Below are positions 1,880-30,826 of a stretch of 35,075 bases of DNA, in pieces. A program made the translations under genes and the position numbers. Numbering within the stretch: the stretch's first letter is position 1; each line of letters opens with the position of its first letter. Source of the stretch: Saccoglossus kowalevskii (lineage: Eukaryota; Hemichordata; Enteropneusta; Harrimaniidae); assembly GCF_000003605.2 (NCBI RefSeq), contig NW_003155237.1:1330437-1365511 (forward strand), written 5' to 3'. The notes below the pieces were generated by a model. The model searched no databases. It saw nothing but the letters and a program-made list of their open reading frames with translations, and had not been told where the DNA came from.

Positions 1880-4000
1880 TCAATATGCATATGGCAAAAG
1901 TTTCTAAAATGAATAATTAGTACATGGTGATGAAAATATATATTAAATTGAAATGATTTGGTGGAAATAGCGCCCTTCTCAACATCCTCAACTTATTATT
2001 ACCTTGTACATATAATAACATGAAAATATCACCAGGATAATGCGGGTTCATGTTATTTTATGTGCGTTTTCTAATAAATTTTATATATCTAATAAATTCA
2101 AACATAGTTCCAACCAAACTTAAATTGATATAATGTACATATAACATACGTTCATTTTCTCACACATTTTTTGTTGATGAATATGACTTCATACAAAATA
2201 TATGCACCAAATTAAACAGCGAGAATTGTGAATCAAAGCTTGCTACTACAGATGGAATTGGTATTGACTGTGTGGATATGAGTGTGAGTATGCGCATTAT
2301 TTATATCGCCGACCATCTGTCTATTGTTGGTAGAAAAAAAGACTAACTACAAAGTAAATGAAAACACTACACAATGGATTTATTTGCAGGCATTTTGTTT
2401 TTATATTATATTCTAGCAAAAAGGTAATACGGTATTTTCATAACAGGGGCCACCATTTTAACAATGACATCAAATGACGGTGTTTCTAGGGCATAATCTG
2501 TATTATTTGTTCATTTTTAATAGGTCACAAATGCATGGCATTATTGTCTAAGTAATTTTTATGTATATTATATATGTTTAAATAGAAATTAATAATAAAT
2601 ACATTAAATGAACGAGTCAATGCTGTATCAAACAAGAATAATTTGTTCACTGGTAAAAGTCACAGAGTTCAACATCTCAAAACAAATCAAACAACATGGC
2701 TACTTTTAATCGTATTGTGATTAGCCCTGTATCATAAACTCAGTCCAATTATATGAAATTGGTCGTACGTCGAATAGAAAAACATCTAGATTGCGCCAGG
2801 GATTTTTGTTCAAGCACGGATAGTTTTTCAATAAGACCAAAATTACTACGGCGTGTGTAAACGATAATTGGGGGGGGGGGGTAATTACAGCAAGATGACT
2901 GTACAATCATGCATAGGCATACTATATTGTGAACAGTGTCTTTGTTGCCGTTTGCTACATGCACTGTTGAATTCAATACATTTGAAAACAATACAATTTT
3001 CATTTAGATGATAAAATCCAAAATATTGTTCGCATAAGCCACACTTATTTACATGATTAAGCATGTTATTTCAATTCCATTCGTATGAATACTGTATAGG
3101 TAAGCCATGTTGGCTTAACAGATTGGAGTGAGTGGTCAATCAACATTGTAATTTGACCCCCCCCCCAAATAGTAATTATTTAAAAAAATATTTATTTTGG
3201 AAGTCAATGAAATGAAAGAATAATATCATATTTAATTCCGGACATTTGAAATAATGTAAATGCATCTTCCGTGCTGTCTTGTAATTTCAAAGTTATTTCT
3301 GACATTCACTGATAAATACACGTATGCTATGACGTATACATTCACATAATGATTTATATAAGATAAATATCACGTGTAGACTATGGTAACATTCATATAT
3401 ATACTAGCAATCGCCATCGATGTACTCCTTCAATTTAAATGTAATTTTACTTTGCATTCCGATAGTAACATTATCTGCATAGATCGGGATCACTCAAACG
3501 CCATAAGAAGGCTTACAATTAATGTAGCAGATTAAAGAATATATAAACAACAGTTTGTTTGTTTTTCAAAATATAATTTAACTATTTATTAATTTATCAC
3601 CTTTTGCAGGACCCGGACACGTTTGTTTTGCCCAACTCCGACTGCGACTAACTAATCGCGATTGTTATTCCGTGTTTGATTACGCTCAACTACGATCATA
3701 ATTAGAATCACGCTCTGGGCAGCCATTTTCACGGTTAAACATGGGGGACAGACGACCAGCGGCTGTTGGGCAATGACGAATTAACATTCCAACGTCCTAA
3801 AAAGGTTAACTATTTTCAGCCAGCGGTGTGTATATTCTAGTTTCTCGTATTTAACTCCACTGTCATCGGCTTATTTTGGCAGCCAAGTGTTTTAGGGGTC
3901 AAGATTCAAGATTGCTGATTATACACAGTATTAATTACAATATTCTGTAATTTGAACTTGACGCCTTGATAGGAGACAAATCCATCTAAATGGAGTAACT
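1880..4000. repeat. diverged tandem non-coding unit, copy A
   Basis: This is the first of three diverged, same-orientation copies of a non-coding segment. Matching landmarks occur in the same order in all three. One is a TTGATATA block followed by AACATA (about 2125; B about 4232; C about 6700). A second is CAAATGACGGTGTTTCT at 2471 (B 4549; C 6926). Copies A and C share the TTGTTCGCAT..AAGCCACA block (about 3028 and 8138-8200). A third block in all three is GACATTCACTGATA near 3302 (B 5176; C 8358). No reading frame is conserved between copies. Boundaries are approximate. Confidence 0.65.
2870..2881. repeat. poly-G run (12 G)
   Basis: Twelve consecutive G residues within copy A of the tandem unit. 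The equivalent place in copies B and C has no such run, so it arose after duplication. Confidence 0.9.
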
Positions 4001-4139: not shown

Positions 4140-6455
4140 TGTTAAATTGTAATATTAGTATTATATATACATGTTTCCAATATATACATGTTTCAAACAA
4201 ATTGAAAAACGAGTTCCACCCAATCTCGCATTGATATATTGTGCATAACATATGCTCGTTTTCGTGGCTATGACTGTCATGAAAAGATATGACAGTCATT
4301 CAAACAGCGGGTAACATGATACACGTGTTTTAATTGAATCGGCGCTTCTAATATAAATGAAACAAGTATGTTAATATCGCCGACTATTCTTGGTGAAATG
4401 AACGAAGACTAATTTCTAAATTAATGAAAAGAACAGTGAACAACGAGAAACTGGAGAGTATCGAGGCATTAAAATTTGAAAGACAGTGAAAATTAGGTTT
4501 ATAGTGTTATTATTTGCATAATTGGTGCTATGATTCACCTGGTAATGTCAAATGACGATGTTTCTCCGGCATAATCAGCAATAGTAAACTTGTCTTGTTG
4601 AAATTCGGAAGGTCATATCGTACGGAATTCTAATGTACATGCTCTATGTTTCAATATATTTTAGAAATTAATATTAAATACATCAAATGAATGCTTTATA
4701 CGTTATACCACGCATGAGAATAATTTGTACACTGGTGAATGTCACGAGTTCATCAATCAATCAAGCATCATTTGAATAGTTTGTGACAAGCCCTGTAGCA
4801 TTAACTATGTTAAATGAGGTGAAATTGGTCAAGTAGCGAAACATCTTGTTATGGTCGACACAGATTTGTGTTTAAGCTCAGACTAGTAATACAATTACTA
4901 GTAAATCCCAAAATGAAGGTTTTTTTACTCATGTTTATTTCATTCATATGGATATTGCGATAATGGATCACATCAATGTACTAGATTAAAGTTAGTGGTC
5001 AGCCAACACAGCAATTTGACCACTAAGATTCTCAATAATTAGGCTTTACGTATTTCAGACATTATTTGATATTCTAGAAGTCGTTGAAATACACGGTGAA
5101 TGTCAAATGACATTCGATATGATGAGAATGTTAATGCAAATACATATATGTGGTCTTGTAAGTTCAAAGCCATTGCTGACATTCACCGATATTGGAATAC
5201 ATGGATGCAATGCGTGTTAATGAATGCAGCATACACTTTTCTAATGATATCAGGTATTTATCCCGACGTACAATTTTACATATTGTATTATATAGCATAT
5301 ATATAATATTAACGTTACGTGCAGATCATGTGATAACGTGATCATTTTCACTTACCCTACTGGTCATTATCACTAGCCTCAGGTCATTCACCCATTCATT
5401 CATTCAATTTCATTAATTTTGACACATTCTTATAGTACATGTAATATTATCTTCAACCATCGGAAAACTCCTGAACGCCGCTGTGAACGATATAATACGT
5501 GTCGCGATATCTACTCGAAATAAAACAACATTCTATGACGGAACTGAAGATGCAGACCACACGGACGTCACGCTGGCCACTCGCGTACATACATTTGTTT
5601 TACCAGTTACTAAATAAGGCACAAACAAGCGTTTTTTCCAAATCGTTAATTAAATATTATTTTTTATATTTTTTTTTGTATAAACACAAAACCTATCATG
5701 ACAATGTTATCATAACTGATATGCGTTGAACCGTAGTTATCTTGTTTAAAGATGGTGGACGGCAATGAACGTATATATTTTTCTTTTCGGGTAAAAGACC
5801 TGGACGCAATTTGTATGTCACATCACGATTGTGATTAACCAATCACGTAATTCGGAATTGCGTGTTCGTCAATGCTCAAAAAAGATCGTGATTTTTGTGA
5901 AACTGCAGACAAACAAATCAGCTTTCAAAACGTTGGTGATTTTTTAGCTAGCGGCATGCATACATATATTCTGATCAAATAGTTTCGGCTATCATTGGCT
6001 TCTCACACATTATTTACTTATTATTAGTAAGTCCTGGAAAGAAAACAACCCCAAACATGATTATGCGTTTGGAGCAGTTCACATTAGATTCCTGTACACA
6101 TCAATGCATATTAACTAGTCTTTGTGTTACGCCTTGATACTGTTATCTAACTTTGACAATAATAAAGTCGACGACGGCGTGTTTGAAACAAATAATCACA
6201 CAAGAAAAATAAAAAGCTGTAATATGTGTTTCAAACGTTTTTTCAACTTTTGAATGAAATGTTAGTGTAATGAAGCAGAAATCCAATTGTGATCAGTCGT
6301 CTTAAAGAATTTGTTGAAGCTTTGAAAGTAATGCAATATTTGTCATTGTGATATAGATGTGCGGGGTTATAAAAACATAGACCACAATTACTACGACGGT
6401 AAAGTAATACATGTATACATTAAATTGTGCAGAGCAGCGTCATCATATCAATTAC
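4140..6455. repeat. diverged tandem non-coding unit, copy B
   Basis: This is the second copy of the tandem unit. It matches copy A at the TTGATATATT..ATAACATATG block near 4232, at GTCAAATGACGATGTTTCT (4547), at the AGCCCTGTAGCATTAACT block (4789; A 2724) and at TTCAAAGCCATTGCTGACAT (5162). It matches copy C at the end through a GGGTTATAAAAACATAGACC-like block near 6364 and the GCAGAGCAGCGT block near 6430. It also contains a perfect 11-bp stem hairpin at 4270-4299. No coding sequence is seen. Confidence 0.65.
4270..4299. repeat. perfect 11-bp inverted repeat
   Basis: ATGACTGTCAT (4270-4280) is followed after an 8-base loop by its exact reverse complement ATGACAGTCAT (4289-4299). It lies in copy B where copies A and C have only a single TATGACTT-like half, so it looks like a local inverted duplication. 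Confidence 0.8.
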
Positions 6456-11740: not shown

Positions 11741-11817
11741 TTAAAGCGGGGGGANNNNNNNNNNNNNNNNNNNNNNNNNNNNNNNNNNNNNNNNNNNNNN
11801 NNNNCCCTCCGCTTTAA
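11741..11817. mobile_element. TTAA-flanked element with inverted ends; interior is the assembly gap
   Basis: On the left TTAA (11741-11744) is followed by AGCGGGGGGA. On the right CCCTCCGCT is followed by TTAA (11814-11817). The two ends are near-perfect inverted repeats (AGCGGGGG against AGCGGAGGG) bounded by the same TTAA tetranucleotide, as in elements that insert at TTAA (piggyBac-type specificity, family knowledge). The interior is 50 N, so size and content are unknown. A solo relic with the same end occurs at 24119-24159. Confidence 0.6.
11755..11804. other. assembly gap (50 N)
   Basis: Fifty consecutive N. The round number suggests a placeholder rather than a measured length. It falls exactly between inverted repeat ends, so a hairpin-prone or multicopy element probably broke the assembly. 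Confidence 0.95.
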
Positions 11818-13007
11818 CAGTCAACAATGTATTCACAAGACTAATAACAAATCAATATTGATTACATACGATCGCATATTGGGATGGTACACTACTGGTT
11901 AATTTAGATTTACGGGCGTGTTGGGGATTAAAATAATTGGTCGGGCTGGCAAATTGCATTTGTAGTTGACAATCTTTCCCTGTGACATATATACTGTCTA
12001 GTGGCGAACATTCAGGCCACCATACTGTAAAACCAATCCATGTACATGAATTCATGGATGTAACTGTTTATGGTAGACCAAACAGAACCCACGTTAAAAG
12101 GAAATAAATGACATTGTTTTGGGGGGTTTTCTGGGGGGGGGGGTAAACCTGCAAAAAAAATGTTTTTTATAGGAAAATTGAGAAATATATATATTCATAA
12201 TGAAACATAATCTGTATGCATACCAATGGTAATTTTCAGAATTACAGATTACACATGAATATTACAGAAAACATTTAATTCTCTATATTCTCTGTGTTTT
12301 TGCATTTTACATTGTACAGACACTTTGTACTATACGACTGCTCTGGTTGATACGACACCCGTACCTTTACACTATAGGAATAACTAATAACTATCTTCCG
12401 TGATACCCGCTGTGGTTGCAATGTAATGGAACATCGCAATCAGATGGATCACGATTTCTTTATAATTTCAAGTATCTGATAAATTTAAATAATTTTGAAA
12501 TTTCCAAATTCGCTATCGATGTGAACGGTACCAATCGTCCATAACGGAACACAAATCTATGTGTAAGCAATGACAATACTCTGTATGGACTGGATACGGC
12601 TTTTGCGGCCCGAGGTCGTACCTTATAGGTGTAATTACAATTTTACCACGCCGTGACCTCAAACACACGACATAATTTAGAATGACGCGTTTTGTTTTGA
12701 TTAATGAAAGCCGGGCACTGGGACTAGCATGATACGGGAAATTATTGCCTTGATATGGGGGCGCACTTCCCAAAGCGATACGAGGCCGACCAATACAAGG
12801 TATGTGATAACACACAATAAAGTCTGTTTTATTTAATAGAGTAGATAGAATGAAGAGGATGCTACTGGCACATTCGACGCGAAAGATTAGCGCGTAAATG
12901 TGCTAGTTCGTCACAGCCCAACAATGAATAAACGAAGACGTCACTTTAACCTCAAGAGACTGGCTCCGGTGACAAAGCAACGAACTGGCATTTAATCAAA
13001 AGTACGG
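11818..13007. other. non-coding region
   Basis: No supported gene. A G-rich patch at 12117-12143 has two G runs (8 or more and 11) separated by TTTTCT. The slightly GC-richer part around 12,500-12,800 has a 100-codon minus-strand open frame, but with no recognisable domain or splice support. Confidence 0.5.
12117..12143 (+). repeat. G-rich tract, possible G-quadruplex
   Basis: TTTTGGGGGG, then TTTTCT, then eleven G. Several GGG blocks within 27 bases could in principle fold as a G-quadruplex. No gene is nearby, so any role is unknown. Confidence 0.5.
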
Positions 13008-13230
13008 CTAATCTACCTCACGACTCTTAGCACATAAAGTAGGCCGAGAGTATCCAATTATTTGCGTGTATAATATTGCACGTGGGAGAGTGTTATTATT
13101 GCACTGACATAAAGTATCAATTTTCTAATTCCACTACATTTTATCTTTTGAGTCTGTGTTACCTATAAAATGAATTATGCTTAGGGCTGTAAACACATTA
13201 TATGCATTTCTTTAAAATCAGTTATGGCGG
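13008..13230 (+). repeat. large inverted repeat, left arm
   Basis: This arm matches the reverse complement of 13999-14234 over about 220 bases at roughly 75% identity by eye. Shared blocks, in order, are GAGTATCCAATTATTT (13046), GTGTTATTATTGCACT (13091), TTTTCTAATTCCACTA (13121), GAATTATGCT (13171) and ATATGC near 13200. It is non-coding. Confidence 0.75.
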
Positions 13231-13998: not shown

Positions 13999-14234
13999 CG
14001 CCGTAACTAACTGCATGAGTTGAACGTACAGAGCCGAAAGGCATATGCATGAATTTACAGCATAATTCTTTTTTTATAAGTAAACTAAGATGGATGTAAT
14101 GTATAAAATTTAGTGGAATTAGAAAATTCAAGTTTATGTTAGTGCAATAATAACACTGTCCTAAGAGCGGCATTATCAACGTAAATAATTGGATACTCCA
14201 GGCCTTTTAACCAAGAATCGTAAAGTAGCGGGGG
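13999..14234 (-). repeat. large inverted repeat, right arm
   Basis: Reverse-complement partner of 13008-13230. On this strand it reads, from the far end, GTAGCGGGGG..., then AAATAATTGGATACTC near 14185, AGTGCAATAATAACACTG near 14141 and TAGTGGAATTAGAAAA near 14112. The intervening loop of about 770 bp carries the MITE. The arms have diverged too much to have formed recently. Confidence 0.75.
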
Positions 14235-15964: not shown

Positions 15965-16570
15965 TTTGTAACCATAGCCTGTTATTATGTATCAATATGA
16001 TGAGCATATTACATGTGTAATCTGCATATAATGCGTCACAATTTGTCTAAATAATCATGTTCTATGCCATGAATAGTTCTGATCGTGTAAAAATAGTTGG
16101 TCATGTGGGATTTCTACGACATAAGTTTGGGTCTTTCGCAACCTCAGGCTTGATGGTAATGGTAATGTGATGGCCCTAACACAGGGTCTCAATACAGGGG
16201 CCTACGTGATTACATTAATTATGACGGACGATGAACCTTCGTGTAATGATCTCGCGAGAAGTGTGTGTATAAGGTATACAGAGTCGTTTCGCCCAAAGGG
16301 ATAACTAGTAAATTAACTTGGATATTATTTTCGAAATAGAATAAACTGAAAATGTTCGGTCCTCTTTAAATTTGTAGACTGTGATTAAGTATATCGTTTT
16401 AATCATAAAATTTGAAGGTTTTCGATTATTGGGGGTGTTTCATTTTTATGGGATATTCCGTCTCCCCATCGCCACTTCACTGTTGCATAAAGTGTACAAC
16501 GCACTGACCATATATTTTAGTGTTTAAAACTAAAGAGGACGAGAAAGCGTTTTTTACATCCTGAGTCACA

Positions 16571-16584
16571 ACAGTTACCAAGAC
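16571..16584 (+). promoter_or_regulatory. X-box-like motif (RFX type), unit 1
   Basis: GTTACCAAGACAAC resembles the RFX X-box (GTNRCC, short spacer, RGYAAC) with one mismatch in the right half. The equivalent in unit 2 is GTTGCCAAGACAAC. The block around it, from AAAGAGGACGAG to AGTCAAGCG, is among the better-preserved parts of the upstream duplication. Regulatory function is an inference. Confidence 0.3.
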
Positions 16585-17302
16585 AACGAACAGTCAGTCA
16601 AGCGGTAGGTCCGTAGGTGATTATATCACTCTCGTTCACTGTCTTTAAATGGAGATGGTATTGTTTTCTAGGTCATTTAAACACTCGTTGGATTTTAATA
16701 ATACACATCTTCTGTTCAAATTATAGAAAACAAAATTATAGAAAACAAAATCTATTTTGATTATAGAAACATTTCCATGCTTTCGTCCAGCCGGTCGTTG
16801 TCATGGACATTGTTACAACATTTCAAAACCGCTCTTTGTTGACCATATGTACAGTACCACAAGCTCGGCTGTGTGAAATTTATTATCCTACAATATATGT
16901 CGCATTAATTCAGTAATCAATTATAAATTATGCATACTCTATAGATTATTCATAATGCACTGGCGGCAATCACGTTCAAATTTCCCCCGGGTTGATCGTA
17001 TCACCAGACATACCATACCATCAACATGCGTTGATCAATTTCCCGTGGGTGTTGAGTCACATATAATATAGGACGTACTTGATTTACAGCTGAGGAAACA
17101 TTCATCTACACTCAGGGGGGATTCAGTATGCAATTATTAACGGCTATTCCATTTATTGGACACACAGCTGTGGCGAAAGTTAACAGGCATCTGCCATAAT
17201 TTCGGATGTAAACAACGTGGTAACAAGCGGATGGAAACAAAATAGCTATGGTGTGGTTAACAATATCATCGTAGATATAATAATCAGATATGCACAGAGG
17301 GT

Positions 17303-17371
17303 CCAATGACCGTAAACTAATCGCCGAGAGGTGACTGTTCTCCACTGTTATTGGATAATCACAGTATTGCG
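17303..17371 (+). promoter_or_regulatory. conserved CCAAT..ATTGG block upstream of exon 1A
   Basis: About 66 bases from CCAATGACCGTAAACTAATC through ATTGGATAATCACAGTATT differ from unit 2 (22928-22996) at only about two positions, while neighbouring DNA is far more diverged. A direct CCAAT (17303) and an inverted one, ATTGG (17350), bracket the block. It lies about 260-330 bases before the ATG. It is a plausible promoter or 5' UTR element; no TATA box is evident. Direct transcription evidence is lacking. Confidence 0.4.
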
Positions 17372-17511
17372 CTGTGTAGTCAATACCGCGTTATTTTCTC
17401 CGCTGTTGAAGACACCGCTGATGTATTGGTTGATGTAACAACATCTGCAGACGCCTGGTCTACTTGTGAACCCAACCACCAACATGCTCGAATGACTATA
17501 ACGGTTATCAG

Positions 17512-17515
<4 letters not shown>

Positions 17516-17553
<38 letters not shown>
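17516..17553. repeat. (TA)19 microsatellite
   Basis: A perfect TA tract sits 76 bases before the ATG of exon 1A. The corresponding place in unit 2 has only TTTGTGTATAG, so the tract expanded after duplication. It could alter the promoter or 5' UTR of copy A. Confidence 0.95.
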
Positions 17554-17556
<3 letters not shown>

Positions 17557-17629
17557 CAATCCATAGCAGCAGCCACGCCCATATCTGTACGGTACCGATT
17601 TATTTATCTGTGGTGTGGAACCACTAATC

Positions 17630-18035
17630 ATGCAAGCAACAGAAGGGGGCGGCGGTGGGAGACACTTCTGTAAACCGAGCCGCATTTTCAGTTTACTCTT
17701 CACCCATGTTGGCTTAGCCTGCATGCTAGTCGTATACGCCGTTATCGGGGCTGCAGTGTTCCAAGCGATTGAAGGACAGTTCGAAATCCGGGAACGAATA
17801 CATTTAGAGCAGACACGTAAAAATGTGTTTGAACTCATCTGGAATATCACAGTAATCGACGGCCAGGAGAATATCAATTTCACCAGTTGGTCGGAGCAGG
17901 TTGCAAACATATTCAGAAAGTACGAGCATGAACACAGACGAGCCGTTATCCACGGTGTTTCCGATGAACTGCAGCCACTGAGATGGACATTTTCTGGCTC
18001 GTTATTCTTCGCTTGCACAGTGTTCACCACCATAG
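17630..18035 (+). CDS. K2P potassium channel, first coding exon, copy A
   Basis: This exon encodes residues 1-135 and the first base of codon 136 of a two-pore-domain K+ channel subunit. ATG 17630 is the first in frame after TAG at 17564. Residues 1-19 form a short Gly-rich cytosolic N-terminus, and about 20-44 form M1. About 45-118 form the extracellular cap, with N-glycosylation sequons NIT (72) and NFT (83) and no cysteine. P1 begins at RWTFSGSLFF and ends TTI|G. The exon ends inside the glycine codon of the GYG filter at donor ATAG|GTGGGT, the intron position long known to be conserved in K2P genes. It must splice 8,184 bp to the acceptor at 26219/26220, skipping copy B. It differs from copy B at H12, K64 and L117. 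The frame, donor and filter are intact, so it is not an obvious pseudogene. Confidence 0.88.
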
Positions 18036-20250
18036 GTGGGTATATTTCAAAATATACTCTGACATTAAAAAGAATGTTGTGTTCAACAGTTTTACATAAC
18101 ACAATACTGTGTATAGTTGTATAGATAATATAGAATAGTTAACTATGTCAAAATTGCAACAGCTGTTTCTTTTGAATCAGTGTATATATATAGCATGTAT
18201 TAGTAATATTCTGCTACATATTTCCCGTCGACCCCCCGGGTTAAAATGTATTCAGCATTATACCAAAACATATTTTGTATCTGATTTATCGAATATTTGT
18301 CATCGGAAGGTGTCCGAGATTTGCCTCGTCTCCATCTGACTAAATTGGTCACAAAGGTGACTGTCTCATGCGTATTGTTGAACGTAGGAGTATGATGATA
18401 TCGGTTTGGTAAATAACAGCGACATTGTACACACAATACTAATCACAAAATCGTACATGTCTCTATGGAGATACAGACTAGATAAACACTGTTACCATGG
18501 ATTTATCGCACTGTGATTCCAAAACGGTACCACTGTCTATGTTTGGTAGATTTTGTTAGACACGCGTTATGTGGTACGTACCTAGTGATTCCGTAACTGG
18601 ATAATTGGAACGAGGGTATATAATAAAAGGAAGATAGCGTGTCCGAGCTTTTCAAACCGCGCGATGGTAGTAAAGTACAATAGCATTCTAGTATCAATTA
18701 TATTTCACGTGTCATGTCAGAAGTATGTATAAATTGACAACATTGTAAATTACTCGTTCCACACGCGATGACTAATTTATTCTACCATTTAATTTCAATA
18801 TAAAAGGCTCATTAATGTTATCGATCACTGCAATGTGCAATTTTAAATGATTTTTTTAAATATGCCCTATCATGGTTAACCGTTGAATACAAGGTTTATT
18901 TTGTACATTAATGCTTAAAAATCAAATATGCTCAGAAAATAATTGATATTTTCAACATGAAGTGGTCGTACCGCTGATTACATATATTTTAGCTAGATGA
19001 TATTATATTAGTGAAGTGAATTTTCAGCCGTGACGTTACGACCATACTAAACGTTCACTTACTTGGTGTATTTATGTATGGAATATAGACTACAATAGCA
19101 CAGTCAGTGCCATTATAGTAACTAGTGGGCTGTCATTTAAACAGGTTGAACACAGTAATAATATGTGCATATGGCAGGGTACCTGTTAGTCCATTTAGTC
19201 CATCACATGTTTTGTTTCCTTGGAGACGTAACGACAAGAGCTAACCAGTTTCTGTCTATAAACTAAATGCATTAACGTAAACCAGTCAAATTTATGACTG
19301 TTTAGTTAATTACACTGTATATTACGAAGGTGTATTGGTCCTAAATCTCGCGATTCATTCGGACACAATTTGAAATCACGCAGTGTCTACTGAATTATGA
19401 TCTGGATTATGTTCAATGTTCTTGACAAAGATATTTGTATTTGAAAAAATCGCGCAGCTGCTTAAACTAAATGGATATTATCTCGTTATCGATACTGCAT
19501 GTGGCTGCGTGGCTGACGTTCCACCACTTCATAAATTACTGTGAATGTCGCTTTAGTTGTAATGATTATATTTTGATGCCAGTTAGCTTGTGAATTCTTC
19601 GGGCAAAGTGTGTTATGACAACTGCTTTCAACGTGATTACTTATTTACCACGCAATCGAATCGACCCCACGTTACCCACAGAATCAATAAAAGTCAAACA
19701 TATCTAATAAGCTGTAATATTTTAAAAGCTATAATCTTTTTTTCTTTTGTATCAGTGGTTTGAAAATATACGTGGAGCTATGTACTGATTACGTAAACGT
19801 AATAATAGGGGTTCAATGACGCCACTTTTTCACCCTCAGTTGTTTTTGTTTTGCAAAAATCTCCATATCGTTACCGCCTTAAGGTATAAACGAAAAGCGA
19901 AATTTACATTTTAATTGAATTTTCAGGAATTGTAGACAGCATAAATTATTCATATCTTGTTTGCATGACCTAATTTTTTTGCAAGACTTCATGGAAAACA
20001 TTACCAAAACGGTTAAATAAACAAATGGCGTTTGGTACGATGAATACACGAATGTTGATTCAGCGAAATGAAATATTGAAAATACATGTATCAGTTTTCA
20101 CCTTCGTATAGCATAGTACGATGTATGCTCATAAATAATGACCTGACTGCTTCTCAATATGAAATCATACCAAGGATAAATACAGCTGATAGAATCACAT
20201 ACAACAAGTTATGAAAGAACGGTCACGAGATTCCAGCAGGAGTTAGTTAC

Positions 20251-21769
20251 CCTGGGAGAAATAGATGGTTGTCACGACAACGGTGCTTTTGGTAATGATT
20301 CTTTGTTCATCGCTGAAAAAATTATACACGAATTGTCATGAAAACGTTGAGGCGAATGTAAATAATGTACATGTGTACAATTTACATATACTCTACATCG
20401 AAATGAAACTGTGAAAGTGAAACCGCTTTACTGGTGTATTGAGACACTTTGGGTTTATTTACTAATAACCTACAGATCATTGCCAGTAGCGGTGTTTCTT
20501 CTCTAGATTAAACAAGATCCCGAAGACATGGTAGAATAAAACTACGCGTAGCTGAGTATGGATGTGTTGTTCGGGGCGTCCCTTACACACAGAACTCCAT
20601 CGAACAGGTAGATCCGGAGAACACGCATTCCAGTGGCACTATGTTCGATGTCATCTAATCAAGTTATTAAACCCGTTTTCAGCAGCCATAACATCTTTCC
20701 TTAATAGAGGATTACTGCGATTTAATGAATTCTATGGAAGATTTATGTCTTTGTTACTGTGACTGAATGGCATGCCGATACTGGTGATAGACGTATACAT
20801 TGGTAAGGCGGTTTCACTCTCCCAGAGTTTCCATAAAACGGCTGAATTTTATTAAACACCACATTTGTTATTGCTCCATGTATAAGTAATATTTCGACAT
20901 CAAAATAATTGAAAACTTACCTCATAGTCGTGAGGTTCGTACGAATATATAATTCTATGCTTGGTGCATACGCTAACAGCAGCCATGATGAAAGAAAGTT
21001 TCAGTATAAAACAAACACTCTTGTAAACTTGCTCTGTGATTGGTCGGCAAAATATAACTACTGGAGCTCTCGTTTTACGAGATTTATATGGCAAATGAGT
21101 CAGGTGTAGGTTGGGCGTCAAAAGAAACACATTTTAAAACCAATACCGCTAATTCAAACAAAATAAATAATAATTTAACATGTAAAAAATGAATAAATAA
21201 ATTTGGAACTCGACATTGGTATCAGTGTGGGAAGACATTGATGCATTCATAAGTCGTTTATTGCAACTTGTAGCCTCCAGTAGTTGAAACATTTACAGGA
21301 AACTAACCATGTATGGTTAGACTGGAACACCGCGAATACTCCTACGATTAACTAAACTTATCTTATTATTTTGTTTTTTATATAAATGACAAAATACCCC
21401 CGATTGAAGGGGTGGTCTTACAACAATCACCTGGAATGATGCAATGACTCAGTATGAACCAAGACCACGGGATCTGTGTTTTTTTCAATTCTGTATTGGT
21501 AATGATGTTGTCATTGAAGTCTAATATCATGACACGTTAAAAAATAATAATTTATCATTACTAATATCTCAATTCAATCATCGAGTTCCATTCAAATCGA
21601 GAATAGTAATAACAATGACTGAGAATGGGTTACTATTGGAAGTTAAGATGACATCAATATTAAGGGTCATTGCATAGAATTGTACTATAGCGTATTGTCT
21701 TTGATGATGTAGGGCCATTTATAATATTTAATAAATTGACTGACTGACTGAATGGCAATGGTTGATACA
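20251..21769. other. unduplicated spacer between the two units
   Basis: About 1.5 kb present once. No supported gene. It holds an 8-bp hairpin (CTAACCAT/ATGGTTAG near 21305) and a short GACT run near 21737. I looked here for a copy of the shared last exon and saw none. Confidence 0.5.
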
Positions 21770-21958
21770 TTGTAACATGTGTAACCATAACTTGTTATTA
21801 TTTATCAACATACTGAACATATTACATGTGTAATCTGCATATGATGCAGCCTTATTTAATTGTTTGGATTGTGATTACGTACATTGTGATCTTCAATCAT
21901 ATATTTTGAAGCTTTTCGATGAATTAAGATACATTGGTAATGATAAACTGGTGCGTGT

Positions 21959-21990
21959 TCCGGAAGGTGCTTCTCCGCCATTTTTTACGT
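21959..21990 (+). promoter_or_regulatory. ETS-like and GCCATTTT motifs in unit 2
   Basis: CCGGAAG (21960) and CCGCCATTTTTTACG (21976) match the ETS core and a YY1-like GCCAT core. Unit 1 has lost both at the aligned place, reading GGGGTGTTTCATTTTTATGG. If real, they would give the copy B promoter inputs absent from copy A. These are short motifs and weak evidence. Confidence 0.2.
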
Positions 21991-22138
21991 GTTATTCAGT
22001 CTCCCCCAGCGCCACTTTGTTGTTGCATACAGTGTACAATACATATTTTATTGCGCCACTCGACAGCTGCTCGGTTCTCAACTCTATCTATACAACTAAA
22101 GAGGACGAGAAAGCGGTCTCCTACATCCTGCAACACAA

Positions 22139-22152
22139 CAGTTGCCAAGACA
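22139..22152 (+). promoter_or_regulatory. X-box-like motif (RFX type), unit 2
   Basis: GTTGCCAAGACAAC fits GTNRCC-NN-RGYAAC except one base in the right half. It is conserved with unit 1 (16571) apart from one G/A change that keeps the R position of the consensus. Confidence 0.3.
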
Positions 22153-22927
22153 ACGAACAATCAGTCAAGCGCAGTGAATACAAAAACAAATCATAATCGA
22201 ATTTGTCACTGCATTGTAGGTAATTATAGCACTCTCGTTCACTGTCATTCAATGGACGTGGTATTGTTTTCTAGGTCATTTAAACACACTTACACTAAAT
22301 AATGAATTTATGGCCAGGAAATAAAACCATATTCTAGAACAATGTACTCATTAGTCTTGTATTTTAAAAATACACATCGTCTGTTTTAATTATAGAAAAA
22401 CAAATCAGTTGTAATTATAAAACCATTCTCTGTACGGTCGTTTTCATTGACAATGTTACTGCATTTCAAAAGATAATGTTGTTGACCATATGTACCGCAA
22501 GCTTGGCCATGTGAAGTTCATAATACATGTTTGTATTAATTCACTGATTAATCAAATATGAATTATTCATACTGTACTCGCTGTAACGTTCAAATTACCC
22601 CTGGGGTGATCGTATCACCATATCAGAACCAAATGAATGATTCGCCACATGCGTTGATCAATTTCCCGTGGGTCACATATACACACAATGGAACGTACTT
22701 GATTTACAGCTGAGGAAATAATCATCTACATTGGGGGGAGATTCACTATGCGATTATTCGCGGCAATTCCATTTATTAAACACACGGCTCTGGCTAAATG
22801 ACATGTGCCAAGTAAATAGGCACTTGCCGTAATTTAGAATGCACCAACGTGGTAACAAGGAATGGAAAAATTAGTTATAGTGTGAATAACAATATCATCG
22901 TATGATAATTAGATATATACGGAGGAC

Positions 22928-22996
22928 CCAATGACCGTAAACTAATCGTCGAGAGGTGACTGTTCTCCATTGTTATTGGATAATCACAGTATTCAG
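22928..22996 (+). promoter_or_regulatory. conserved CCAAT..ATTGG block upstream of exon 1B
   Basis: Partner of 17303-17371, with about two differences in 66 bases. CCAAT is at 22928 and ATTGG at 22975, about 295-360 bases before the exon 1B ATG. Its preservation inside otherwise diverged flanks is the main argument for function. Confidence 0.4.
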
Positions 22997-23289
22997 TATT
23001 AGAACTGACGTATTTTACTCACGCTGTGCACTCAGTATCGAGATACTTTCCTCTGCCGTTGAAGACATCCCGATCTACTGTACTTTACTGGAAGAGCATC
23101 TGGCAATTTTAAAATGCCTGGGTCTACTGGTGATATTAAATGTATTTCCAAAAGACGCAAACTCTACACATGCTGGAATAACTGTCATAACTATAACAGC
23201 TATTTGTGTATAGTTCATACAACAAGTAGTTGCAACGCTCACATGTGTGTGGTACCGATGTGTTTATCTGTGGTGTGGAACCACTAATC

Positions 23290-23695
23290 ATGCAAGCAAC
23301 AGAAGGAGGAGGCGGGGGGAGACGCTTCTGTAAACCGAGCCGCATTTTCAGTTTACTCTTCACTCATGTTGGCTTAGCCTGCATGCTAGTCGTATACGCC
23401 GTTATCGGGGCTGCCGTGTTCCAGGCGATTGAAGGACAGTTCGAAATCCGGGAACGAATACATTTAGAGCAGACACGTAACAATGTGTTTGAACTCATCT
23501 GGAATATTACAGTAATCGACGGCCAGGAGAATATCAATTTCACCAGTTGGTCGGAGCAGGTTGCAAACATATTCAGAAAGTACGAGCATGAACACAGACG
23601 AGCCGTTATCCACGGTGTTTCCGATGAACTGCAGCCAGTGAGATGGACATTTTCTGGCTCGTTATTCTTTGCTTGTACGGTGTTCACCACCATAG
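23290..23695 (+). CDS. K2P potassium channel, first coding exon, copy B
   Basis: Same structure as copy A: M1 at about residues 20-44, a cysteine-free cap with NIT and NFT sequons, and P1 ending TTI|G at donor ATAG|GTGAGA, a better consensus donor than copy A's. ATG 23290 is the first in frame after TAG at 23227. It differs from copy A at 13 of 406 bases, ten of them silent; the replacements are R12, N64 and V117. Bases 23509-23637 are identical to copy A, 129 bases without even a silent change. It joins the shared exon over a 2,524-bp intron and is the nearer, probably default, first exon. The product would be 381 residues. Its role would be background (leak) K+ conductance at the plasma membrane as a dimer (family knowledge). 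Confidence 0.92.
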
Positions 23696-26219
23696 GTGAG
23701 AATATGTCGAAATATATTTTGACATAAAAAAGAGAATGATTTACAGTTTTAAACACATTTCTATTATTTTATTAGATTATAGATAGTATACAATATTTAA
23801 CCCTGTTCCAATCGCAACAGCTGTTCCTTTTGAATCAGTGTGTGTATATATAGTAATATTCTGCTATATATTTTTCCGTCGACCATTGGGTAAAATGCAT
23901 TCAACATTTTTGTTGTCGAATATTTTTCATCGGAAGGTGTTCAATATTTGCCTCTGACTGGACACAAGGGCAAATGCCTAATGCTCGTTGTAAAACGTCG
24001 GAATAGAGTAATATCAGACTAAAAACAACTAGCGACACTGCACATAAATAATAATCACACATTCACCAATCACACATGTCCATGCGACTAGGGATCAACA
24101 CGGGTTTATCACTGTTAAAATGTCTGTGCCCTACGCAGGTGACGACTCCCCCGCTTTAACATAGATTTATCGCACTGTGGTTCCCAAACGATACACATAT
24201 CACTCTATGTGTGGCAGATTTTGTTAGGCACGCATATGATTTTAAACACCATGCTAGTACAGCATTTTTGTATTAATTATATTTCACGTGTCATTTTAGA
24301 AATATATTTAAATTGACAACACCTTAAATAGGATAATGTATTCTATTGTGTAATTTCAAAATCATTCAGTTCAAAATCATTAATGCTATTGATCTTCGAA
24401 ACGTGTAATAAAAAATGTTTTTTTTTTGTTTTTTTAAATTATGGCTTATCACTGCCATGGTTAACCGTTAAATACAAGGTTTATCATGTCAAACATGCCG
24501 AGAAAGTAATCGATATATTCAATATGAAGTGGTGGTGCCGCTGAATACATTTATTTTAGTTAGATGGTTTTATATTATCACGGAAAGGTTATATTGACAT
24601 GAGAAATGAAGTGAAGTGAATTTTTCACGGGCGTGACGTCACGGTCAAACTAAACGTTCGCTTGCTTGGAGTAGTTATGTAGCAGGGGTACAGAATACCA
24701 TTGCAGATTCCAAAATCGCATATTAATATTACCCAAAATAAAAAAAAAAATTTGTGACAGACTGTACACCAGTAACACAAATGAGAGGCGATTATATTGT
24801 TGCCGAAATACAGTCATTATAGTAACATTATAGTAACTGTCATTTACGTGGATTGATCACAGTAATAATACGTGCTTGTGGCGGGGTACAGGGGATGGCA
24901 ATCTGTTAGTCCATTTATGCCTTTGTTCGCCTAAGTTATGTTTTGTTTCCTTGGAGACTTAACAATATGACCTAACCAGTGACATGTCTATAAACTAAAT
25001 GCATTGGCGGAAAACAGTTTATTTAATTGCAATGTAAATTGCAACAATTTGCCACAAAATGTATTGGTACAAACCCTGCAATCGACTGAGAAATAATTTC
25101 AAATCAAGCAGTGTTTACTGAATAATGATCGGGATTATGTTCTATGTTATTGACAAAGATATTTTATATTTAAAAGAAAATGCACAACTGCTTAAACTAT
25201 ATGTATAATATCTCGTTATCGATACGGCATACGTGGCTGTGTGCCTGACGCTCAACTGCTTCAGGCAATACCATGAATGTTCCTTCGCATGTAATGACTA
25301 TAAGAAAAGGTTAATTAAACAAATGGCGTTCAATATAATACATACAGACATGTTGATTTAGCGAAATGAATAACCGCTAAATAAATATCAGTTTTCGCCT
25401 GCATATAACTTAGCATGATGTATGCTAATAAATAACCGCCTTACTCTTTCTCTGATGAAGTCTAAGTTATGCCAAGGAACGATACAGCTGATAGAATCAC
25501 CACACACAGAAGTGTTTCTTGCCTACAAGTTAATCGAGTTGTTTAGCATTTGCATAGTTTTGCTGAACGTGAATACAAATGTGCATAAATTGTATAAGCT
25601 CCACGGCTTGTAGAACATATAAATGAATTTGATTATAATACATATCTCTGAAGGAAGTGATGTTTTGCCGGCGTTTGTTTGTGTTCCTGATTTTAGGCAT
25701 TATAAGTTGCCCTTGGCACGAGGACCAATCCATAACAAATTGATAGAGATGTGGAACCGGTTTCAATTTAGAGAATTTGTTTTGTTTAACACATAACGTT
25801 ATTGATGGATTTTTGAAAATGTCAGGAAGGGTTGGCTTTGCCACTGGGACCAGTCGATTAGATTTAGGTAGAGACTGAAGTGGATCAGGTTTTCATGGTA
25901 ACTGAATTTGTTTCAACAAGTTATGAAAAGAGTGATCATTAGATTCCAGTTGACATAAGTACAAATCAATTAAATATTGGGAAATATGGATCCAGTGTAA
26001 CAGTAATTTTGGGAATTATTCTTCTTTTATGGTTATGGTTATGGTGAATGTACATGTGAATATGTATATGCAAGACATCGAGGTGCACATGAATGCGAAT
26101 GCATATACATTTCTTATCAAATGAATGTCCATATAGTTCAAGTCGCACTAAAATGATGCTCCCCCAAAACATACCGACAGTTTACTTGAGAATAATTATT
26201 TTTCTTTCTACTTCACCAG
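23696..26219 (+). other. intron of transcript B
   Basis: GTGAGA..TTCACCAG intron in phase 1. It splits the first glycine codon of the GYG filter. It contains the rest of duplication unit 2, including the block around 24,600-24,665 with a perfect TGACGTCA (24634-24641; unit 1 has TGACGTTA), and a short (TTATGG)3 run near 26,027. The acceptor has a pyrimidine-rich tract (TTTTTCTTTCTACTTCACCAG). Confidence 0.85.
24119..24159. mobile_element. TTAA-flanked relic insertion absent from unit 1
   Basis: Unit 2 has about 41 extra bases here relative to unit 1 (near 18495). They are bounded by TTAA (24115-24118) and TTAA (24156-24159). The right end, read on the minus strand, is AGCGGGGGAGTCG, matching the left end of the gap element at 11745. 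It looks like an internally deleted copy of the same TTAA-inserting family, and it arrived after the segmental duplication. Confidence 0.55.
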
Positions 26220-26959
26220 GATATGGACATATGGCACCAGAGACAACAGAAGGTCGTGCTTTCTGCATGGTATATGCATTCTTCGGCATTCCTCTACTTA
26301 TGCTGGTCCTAGTTGATTTGGGTTCATTGCTTGCAAGAGGAACCAAATTGTTATATCTTAAAATATTTCGACCGTACATCAACAAGACAAGTGGTAAAGT
26401 GTCTTGTTTCAAGAACAAACGGGGATCTGCAGATATACAGCAAAATTCTATTAGGGATGAACGTGGAATTGAAAATCCTGTTCCCGTGAACGAGGGTGAG
26501 AATAATAGGAATGATAACATCTTTAAAAGTGATTATGGCGGAGATGTTATAGTGATGGAAAGCCAGGAAGGTACAACAAATAAAAATGACAAAGAAGAGC
26601 ATGATGAGATGGATATTCCTATGTTGGCGATCATTGCCTTTGGATTTCTATACATGTGTGTATTAGCGGCACTTTTTTCAGCATGGGAAGAAAACTGGGA
26701 TTACTTCGAGTGCTTTTATTTCTCTTTTATTACACTGAGTACCATCGGGTTTGGTGATTTGGTTCCAGAACATCAAAAGTTCACCATAGCATCATCGTTT
26801 TTTATTCTACTGGGCATGACTGTGATGACGATGTGCATCACATTATCGCAGTCCAAAATACAGCACTCGTTAACGTGGATGGGATGGAGAATCGGTATCA
26901 AACCAAAGCCCAAAGAAGACGATGCGCAAAAAGATGGTGGTGGTGATGTACACGCGTAG
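26220..26959 (+). CDS. K2P potassium channel, shared last coding exon
   Basis: This exon completes either first exon. The first two bases finish glycine 136, giving TIGYGHMAP, the first selectivity filter. M2 is about residues 148-174 and contains the GIP motif (158-160). A hydrophilic M2-M3 loop of about 90 residues follows (175-267), longer than in TWIK or TASK channels and reminiscent of TRESK and nematode TWK proteins. M3 is about 268-290. P2 carries TIGFG (310-314), and M4 is about 323-347. The C-tail is short and charged (Lys/Asp/Gly), and TAG is at 26957. Total length 381 is normal for K2P. GYG in P1 with GFG in P2 fits K+ selectivity. By similarity I would call it an invertebrate TWK/TRESK-like subunit, but the subfamily is uncertain. 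Confidence 0.95.
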
Positions 26960-26960
26960 A

Positions 26961-27012
26961 GCAGGTGAATTGGAACATATACAAGTGCAGGTGAATTGGA
27001 ACTTATACAAAT
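26961..27012 (+). repeat. 26-bp direct repeat x2 in the 3' UTR
   Basis: GCAGGTGAATTGGAAC followed by WTATACAARt occurs twice head to tail, starting two bases after the stop codon. This may be a simple slippage duplication. Confidence 0.85.
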
Positions 27013-28073: not shown

Positions 28074-28105
28074 ATATCAAACAGGGATCGAACATTATAT
28101 TTACG

Positions 28106-28511
28106 AATCTGTACCAACAACTAAGGTCTTGCAATTATCCCATATTATTTAATTACCTAATCTGATTTGAATCAGAAAAAATTGTATTATGTCAATGTGT
28201 GCACAAACAGTACTTAACTAGATATTGAACCTTTCATAATTAATATTTTTACAATTCATGTCATACAGTGAAATAGAAAAAGACTGAACATACATAAATA
28301 ATATACAAATCTGTACCAACAACTAAGAACTTGCAATTATCCCATATTATTTAATTACCTAATCTGATTTGAATCAGAAAACATTGTATTATGTCAATGT
28401 GTGCACAAACGGTACTTAACTAGATATTGTACCTTTCATAATTAATATTTTTACAATTCATTTCATACAGTGAAATAGAAAAAGACTGAACATACATAAA
28501 TAATATACAAA
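28106..28511 (+). repeat. 202-bp tandem duplication (two copies)
   Basis: 28106-28307 and 28308-28511 are nearly identical, with only a handful of substitutions by eye. Each copy contains an imperfect palindrome TCTGATTTGAATCAGA. The high identity indicates a recent duplication. It is non-coding. Confidence 0.9.
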
Positions 28512-30826
28512 TACAGTTAACGAGTATGCACGGGACTGAAAATTGAAATCAACCCCCGAGATATGATTCTCACCTATTACCTGAATTAAGTGACTTATTT
28601 TACAAATACAAATTACTGAGACAAAATGTTTAATTCATATTACATGAATGTGTATACCTGTAATTGTTCAATGGCATCTCGTTATTGTAATCTGTTTGAA
28701 ATGTCTAAGTGCCTTGTTTTGCAAACATGGTGACTGACAGCGCTATGGCATAAATCCTCATTTTGCACAAGAGCTATCAATAGAATAATTGGTGCAATAC
28801 AATGTTTCATCTTTAAAATAACATGGACATATGTAAATGATTTTTGGAGTTTTTATCTAATTAAAATGTCATGTTTTAATATTATAATATATTGATTTAG
28901 ATTTAACTTGCTTCATAATAAACATGGATTTGTACCGGTACACTAATGACATATTGCCAATATCCGGTAGTTTGATTATCGTCAGCTTCAATAACTCCCA
29001 AGGTTTCAATTCATTAAAATTTCAAATTCAATTAACATATTTATTGTACTTTGAAATTGCATGTCTTTCTCTCACATTATCTATTTCTGTAGAGTCTTAC
29101 AATATAGTTCTTTCAACTTTTGTATTTGAATGGAAAATTTCATTATTTTTTTGTGAAAAACAATTTTGTGCAATAAAGAAATTTATTTCGTTTACAATTG
29201 AAAATGTGACAAATACTGAACTACATTCAGATAGAGTGGGTATATGATATATCGCATATTATATGATACATAAACAGTTCATTCCATTCATTGGCAACAA
29301 AATGAGTGAATTTCAGCTTACACGTCATCGACAAGCATATTTAATAGCTACGAGTCCTGTAGTATAAATAACTTCATAAAAAAAGATGTTTGGCTCCTTT
29401 GTATCAGGATTATTTATTACAGAACTACCTTAATGTACACATTACCATATGTATACAATGCATTACTACGTTGAGCTCTTCACTCAGAAAATTGTTAAGA
29501 CGTCCTCTTCCCCAAGCTCAACAGTAGTACAAGCTCAAAGACAGACGCATTTGAGCCCAGTTGTCTGCCTGTTGAAGATATTTTGTGGTTTCCAGTTAGG
29601 ATTACAAGATTTGGTTTTAAGATCTTCTGCAAGAAATTATTTTATGTGCTGGTTATTTTCTCAGGCCTTTTCACCGGATCAAAGGCATTTATTTACGAGA
29701 ATAAGCAAGATAAAAAAAGCATAACTCATTATTTTCTCATTTGAACGTGTTGAACATTCCACTACAAATATAACTATACGCCTGTCTGAGAAAACGTGTC
29801 CTCAATTTAATATTGCAAATCGTCGGGGGAGGCTATGTGCTATAATCATATAGTTGTAAAAATACTTAATCAATATTGAAGTTGTAAAGTTGATAAGCAT
29901 ATTATTTCATTTTCTAGTAAATAAATTATTGAGCAATATTTGCCACAAGCAATATGATTTGGTAATTTATATATGATGTTATTATTAGTACATATGCCAC
30001 TGACAACACCAGGGGTGTATGTGAGTACCTACAATTGTTTTTAAATCTAAGATGAGATCAAACCATGTGACTAATAGTAAATCAATTTCCAAAGATTAGT
30101 GCACACAAACCAAATTTGAAATCAATGTGGTTAGTTTTTCTAAAACGTTTAAATTGACAATACATTTCAAAATCATTCAGTTCAAAATCATTTTTAAAAC
30201 GTTTTATATATTTTTGTCAGTGAATTGGTTATATACTTTTACAAAACGTCACATAATATCTCACTCTTCTATTTATATCGGTTATATTGACATGTGTACA
30301 AGGAACAAAACAAAATGATCAATTTTAGCAACAAATTACATTTTATCATCATTTTACAATTTGTCATCTATGCACACAATACCCAGTTAGTAGTAAAGGT
30401 GTTTCTATAACATATGAAATTAGGTATGCGCATAATTAACACTGGATCACCCAAATACGTTAAACCATAAGCATAAAACTAGGTTAGTATTAAATATGTA
30501 TATATATTAGACTTATGTCAGTAATATATGTGTATATCATGCTGCCACAGTTTTTTTCAGATTGCCTGATAAGTTTGATAAAAAGAGAATTCGCATTTTT
30601 TTCAAATTTTGCATGGCTACCACACCTTGTAACCAATCTCAAAAAGAATTTCAAAAATAAGGAGCACTGACATACCCTTCCAATAATCCAAACTCAGCAG
30701 TCGAGTAATGGGCATATAATACTATAACAATATACAAAGCATATTTACACACATAAATCAACGTACACGTGTACAGAAACGAATAGTCTTGGAGAACAAA
30801 TAACTTTAATACACATGGTACACGCA

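Follow-up and report, generated by a model that had tools for sequence, protein, structure and literature searches.

Similar first coding exons stand in tandem in UGT1 and GCNT2, all in one frame and each with a promoter before it, and one set of constant exons serves them all. The UGT1 promoters carry a conserved upstream motif, and, within the part of that account on which we draw, gene conversion is predominant among the variable exons of the protocadherins and is not so in UGT1 or GCNT2 (PMC1885805). The clustered protocadherins and the chelicerate sDscam genes are described, in the portion of a second account used here, as tandem 5′ units that each have a promoter before them and are spliced to constant exons, the sDscam cassettes generally containing two or four exons (PMC4835542). 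The locus analyzed here is a gene for a K2P potassium channel in which every product draws on two coding exons. It lies in a 35,075-nt stretch of DNA; we call this whole stretch the window. Like UGT1 and GCNT2, as far as the consulted portion describes them, the K2P locus has tandem first coding exons in the same frame and a shared downstream exon. We consider it likely, from the sequence evidence given below, that two homologous first exons, together with their promoters, feed one exon 2 and provide nearly one channel with two starts.

Of the 406 bases of the first coding exon, 13 differ between copies A and B (Table 1), and there is not a single indel; ten of the differences are silent and three are replacements (H12R, K64N and L117V). 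A first-pass annotation of this DNA had called both exons intact, which their open frames and gap-free alignment bear out, and had placed their ends at the identical base of the GYG glycine codon, where the exon ends indeed fall. It had also predicted two 381-residue products that differ only at the three replaced positions, and conceptual splicing of either exon to exon 2 yields exactly these proteins, with no internal stops. Both spliced products carry the filter signatures TIGYG at 134 and TIGFG at 310 and four hydrophobic segments ordered around the pores as M1-P1-M2-M3-P2-M4, with about 70 residues between M1 and P1 as judged by eye. The spliced copy-B product matches the Pfam family Ion_trans_2 over two stretches (E 4.5e-37), and its best match among solved structures is KCNK3 (E 3.9e-28), followed by KCNK9 (E 9.8e-28). 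With two pore loops that carry the K+ filter signature and four membrane segments, the predicted protein qualifies as a K2P (KCNK) channel. The sites of H12R, K64N and L117V vary across the six paralogues that were read, and polarizing the replacements by means of these paralogues was dropped on that account; as predicted from sequence, the replacements give no hint of a functional difference.

Table 1. Positions of the channel gene's parts, its candidate upstream elements and the duplicated units, counted from the first letter of the window.
Feature	Positions	Strand	Description
Duplication unit A, outer detectable limits	15967-20408	+	5′ flank, exon A and most of intron A; from self-blastn and Smith-Waterman
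Conserved upstream block A	17301-17368	+	CCAAT at 17303, ATTGG at 17350; ends 261 bp before ATG; candidate promoter A core
5′ UTR-like stretch, copy A	17565-17629	+	65 bases aligned to B, 11 differences, no gap
First coding exon, copy A	17630-18035	+	Codes from the N-terminus through M1 and the cap to P1; its last base is the first of the GYG glycine codon
Donor A, GTGGGT	18036-18041	+	U1 duplex -9.5 kcal/mol
Dispersed repeat in the A-B junction	20792-21204	.	Three further genomic places found, 69-76% identity
Duplication unit B, outer detectable limits	21780-26153	+	5′ flank, exon and intron; from self-blastn, global alignment and Smith-Waterman
Conserved upstream block B	22926-22993	+	CCAAT at 22928, ATTGG at 22975; ends 296 bp before ATG; candidate promoter B core
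First coding exon, copy B	23290-23695	+	Codes for the parts named for copy A, with its last base at the same place in the glycine codon
Donor B, GTGAGA	23696-23701	+	U1 duplex -9.5 kcal/mol
Last coding exon, single, common to A and B	26220-26959	+	Remaining glycine-codon bases, YG, M2, loop, M3, P2, M4 and stop TAG

We now turn to the splice sites. An intron that interrupts the GYG motif of P1 at its first glycine codon is a feature of the K2P family. At this locus, exon A ends in CCACCATAG followed by GTGGGT, exon B ends in CCACCATAG followed by GTGAGA, and the acceptor reads TTTTTCTTTCTACTTCACCAG followed by GATATGG. The working-looking donor that had been annotated at each copy is upheld by the pairing of both with U1 (Table 1), a strength reached by 0.19% of the 2124 GT sites in the window; the donors of six paralogues pair with U1 at -6.4 to -10.2 kcal/mol. 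Nine paralogue first exons were found, and the six of them with loci were read; all six stop at this phase of this codon and are followed by a GT donor, and all seven exon-2 loci that were read (the window's and six of the 28 others) start at that point of the codon, after AG. Because the paralogue splice points agree, the split of the filter codon is common to the family and was not made by this duplication, and it is this family-wide split that lets a copied first exon fit the existing acceptor.

The copy number of the two exons was determined by protein searches. In the window, the exon-1 protein has strong matches at A and B alone (E 3e-91 and 1e-89), and there is no third copy with an E-value below 0.78, that of the next match; the exon-2 protein matches strongly at 26222-26956 alone, and its next match has an E-value of 2.4. 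Searches of the gene's own genome covered a 572-Mb assembly of 4830 contigs. There, the exon-2 protein finds 29 places, of which the window's is 100% identical and the remaining 28 reach at most 54% (short pieces); the runner-up by E-value has 38% identity. The one acceptor exon at 26220 is accordingly confirmed as annotated, with no second copy in the window or in the assembly. The first-exon protein finds 11 places, of which one of the two copies is 100% identical, the other 98%, and the remaining nine 26-39%. The 5′ flank of A matches the assembly at A and B alone, in a search that passes over simple repeats and words of very high frequency, and the copy is thus private to the locus and no known mobile repeat. 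Among viral contigs, a search for relatives of exon 2 gave 14 pattern matches, of which none was confirmed.

The likeness of the A and B units exceeds chance by far. Each unit comprises about 4.4 kb of 5′ flank, exon and intron, and the two align in pieces that are split by indels, each unit having inner stretches that lack a counterpart in the other. The last homologous piece, 20202-20408 against 25914-26153, scores 65, compared with a maximum of 42 in 60 shuffles, and the detectable homology of unit B ends 66 bp upstream of the exon-2 acceptor. Left of 15967 (the edge of B beyond 21780), no further homology stood out, with a score of 34 matched by 50 of 60 shuffles and a score of 50 by 5 of 60. 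No RNA families were found in the window or in the A-B junction, and no Pfam families were found for the open reading frames at 21834-22193 (+) and 12513-12902 (-).

Other repeated DNA lies elsewhere in the window. Upstream of the channel gene, there is a further tandem duplication (2054-3331 and 4159-5212), in three pieces of 70-76% identity with a spacing of about 1.9-2.1 kb, and an inverted repeat pair (13013-13144 and 14103-14228) that is 80% identical, with about 1 kb between its arms. A 50-N gap at 11755-11804 has G-rich/C-rich inverted ends, GCGGGGGGA before it and CCCTCCGC after it. A 26-bp unit in about two repeats (26961-27010) adjoins the stop codon of exon 2, and about 1.1 kb past that codon a 202-bp unit occurs twice, head-to-tail and 96% identical (28099-28512).

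The 5′ flanks of the two copies share short stretches of high similarity. The conserved upstream blocks differ at 4 of 68 bases (64 alike), and the flanks have an overall identity of 0.76. The most similar noncoding stretch, 17297-17376 against 22922-23028, agrees in 75 of its 80 aligned columns, and a permutation test for the best 80-column window gives P 0.0068 (local correlation ignored and gaps excluded). Directly before the ATG, the copies differ at three of 40 bases. The upstream blocks and the stretch near the ATG are candidate promoter and 5′ UTR elements; between block and start codon there are four upstream ATGs in A and five in B. In both copies the motif TATAG precedes the 5′ UTR-like stretch, ending at 17554 in A and at 23213 in B, and it is a possible acceptor; exon B might then be spliced into, or a noncoding exon might lie further upstream. 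Copy A has a (TA)19 microsatellite (17516-17553) just ahead of its 5′ UTR-like stretch, and copy B lacks it.

We next compare the divergence of the exons with that of the DNA around them. The homologous noncoding DNA of the units differs by 22-29%. Around the exons, two regions of the 5′ flank have Jukes-Cantor (JC) distances of 0.258 and 0.319, and two of the intron have distances of 0.372 and 0.260, perhaps somewhat inflated by poor alignment (17452-17551, 53% identity); these four noncoding regions supply 2349 aligned bases and 56 gap events. The count of divergence was confined to 16500-19570, because in the global alignment the far left end is misplaced and 19601-20520 is badly aligned (40-58% identity). 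Between exons A and B, dS is 0.116 and dN is 0.0096 (dN/dS 0.083). When one lineage was simulated 5000 times as drifting at the intron rate, 88.8% of the runs acquired a stop, and the mean number of amino-acid changes was 38.4 and the lowest 21; the two lineages together show three such changes and no stop. A test conditioned on the 13 differences, which assumes equal rates and neutral silent sites, gives P 0.004 for a neutral A paired with a fully constrained B and P 6e-5 for two neutral copies; as it uses these differences alone, gene conversion that preceded them leaves it unaffected. A copy A that was neutral since the last common sequence would also be expected to show about two indels and shows none, which is weak evidence. 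On these sequence comparisons, drift of exon A ever since the last sequence common to both copies is rejected (P 0.004, n=13), the exon pair is held by purifying selection or was homogenized, and both first halves seem to have been kept in working order. The extent of the duplicated units, their end shortly before the acceptor and this contrast between exons and flanks go beyond the first-pass annotation.

The silent sites suggest that selection on the protein may have been joined by a second process. Silent differences occupy 10 of 93 exon sites and 329 of 1357 intron sites (Fisher P 0.002). Since the exon dS of 0.116 lies below the flank divergence of 0.26-0.37, gene conversion or silent-site constraint likely acts on the exons, and the likeness of the exons may stem in part from gene conversion, which would refresh even an unused exon. 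The silent differences number three at 8.5 sites in the first 35 bases, four at 77.0 sites in the middle 345 and three at 6.8 sites in the last 26. Their clustering at the edges (P 0.035, in three zones that were chosen after the data were seen; longest silent run, P 0.07) is modest evidence that fits a conversion tract within the exon.

These observations may be combined into one mechanism. A tandem duplication of about 4.4 kb would have taken the promoter region, the first coding exon and nearly the whole first intron, and exon 2 would have stayed single. Each copy would then drive its own transcript. In a transcript that starts at A, the donor at 18036 would be joined to the acceptor at 26220 and exon B lost with the intron; exon B, being a first exon, would normally not be a splicing target. 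In a transcript that starts at B, 23696 would be joined to 26220. The coding copies would be kept alike by purifying selection and probably by gene conversion as well. Alternative first exons spliced into one last exon, as the first-pass annotation had proposed, are the reading best supported by the constraint or homogenization of the exon pair, the donors, the copied 5′ flank with its conserved block and the sole exon 2; the separate promoters of that proposal are a prediction from the flanks. Transcription of A, splicing from A to 26220, differing expression from the promoters and gene conversion are, likewise, what we infer. As both channels have 381 residues and differ at three positions, what has been retained would be two promoters over one channel. 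Somewhat more tentatively, and with slightly less than even confidence, we suggest that the locus is a minimal variable-first-exon cluster of the K2P family, in which two promoters are kept, the coding exons evolve in concert and retention serves expression control alone.

The main rival to two working starts holds that A is an orphan without exon 2 and without a useful product, which is intact through recent silencing or conversion from B. It would account for an exon dS so far below the noncoding distances and for silent differences clustered at the exon's edges, as an inner conversion tract would leave them, but the ten silent changes against just three replacements since the last common sequence speak against full neutrality, and a conserved upstream block and a strong donor would not be expected to persist in an orphan; we judge this explanation unlikely. 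The annotation's own alternative, that A is a dead relic still to decay, is hard to square with an old relic, since decay is plain in the noncoding DNA; it could still hold for a copy recently silenced or refreshed by conversion. Copy A might instead make a truncated M1-cap-P1 protein through an intronic poly(A) site, which would act on the B channel, for example as a dominant negative. Frame A stays open for about 29 codons beyond its donor (within a 185-residue open reading frame, 17567-18124), and between donor A and exon B there are 14 AATAAA or ATTAAA words, of which AT-rich DNA yields many by chance, so that A transcripts could terminate early. However, identity falls after the donor, the donor is strong and frame B closes sooner (23727), and we give a truncated product only a very slim chance.

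Two further explanations may be weighed. The tandem might be an artefact of assembly, in which two alleles, or a paralogous contig, were set one after the other, and the presence of a 50-N scaffold gap in the window (11755-11804) and an assembly in 4830 contigs give some room for it. Yet the gap falls outside both units, and no first exon of allelic identity and no further 5′ flank was found elsewhere in the assembly. Allelic divergence is usually far below 22-29%, and the noncoding divergence of the units, with its many indels, goes far beyond it; we regard an artefact as very unlikely. Alternatively, and as a matter of origin more than of present function, the whole gene might have been duplicated, after which A lost its exon 2 cleanly and later shared that of B or died. 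The end state would look identical, and the junction of about 1.4 kb carries a dispersed repeat (Table 1), a possible companion of a deletion. But a search of the junction (20300-21900) found no relic of exon 2, whose score of 32 was equalled in 38 of 60 shuffles of three-base blocks, nor a clear one of its 3′ flank, whose score of 55 was equalled in 6 of 60. In contrast, three simulated exon-2 copies that had decayed at the one-lineage intron rate scored 925-1020, and a 100-bp piece scored 132-146 in five runs. As decayed copies are so readily scored, exon 2 was either never copied or cleanly removed, and an origin by whole-gene duplication appears highly improbable.

Returning to the reading with two promoted first exons, the position of the intron gives the duplication its meaning. 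Since the first intron of K2P genes sits in the selectivity-filter codon, a copy of promoter and exon 1 gives a half-channel that can be joined to the existing second half with the splice sites already there. Should both starts be in use, the locus would offer a clean case in which a promoter was duplicated and the protein hardly altered, and with it a natural test of whether regulation is what keeps partial tandem duplications. Open-licence titles and abstract openings mention no such K2P gene among the matches listed, which is weak evidence of novelty. Variants of TREK-2/KCNK10 arise from alternative 5′ exons and differ in the N-terminus before M1. The present gene resembles TREK-2/KCNK10 as a two-pore channel with more than one start and differs from it in that the duplicated exon is a tandem copy carrying M1, the cap and P1.

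The locus has tandem homologous first exons in a common frame and phase, with a single downstream exon in both window and assembly, and by analogy its best reading is a two-member variable-first-exon gene like UGT1, GCNT2 and the protocadherins. Set beside UGT1 and GCNT2, in so far as the consulted portion of their account describes them, it differs in that there are only two copies, which encode near-identical peptides, that a single exon follows them and that the product is an ion channel. Promoter use is documented in that portion for UGT1 and GCNT2, whereas at the K2P locus it is predicted from sequence; gene conversion, which is not predominant there, is suspected here. The protocadherin and sDscam clusters, as their own partial account presents them, make diverse proteins. 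In contrast, the two K2P products are nearly alike, and the gain from a second first exon would be one of regulation.
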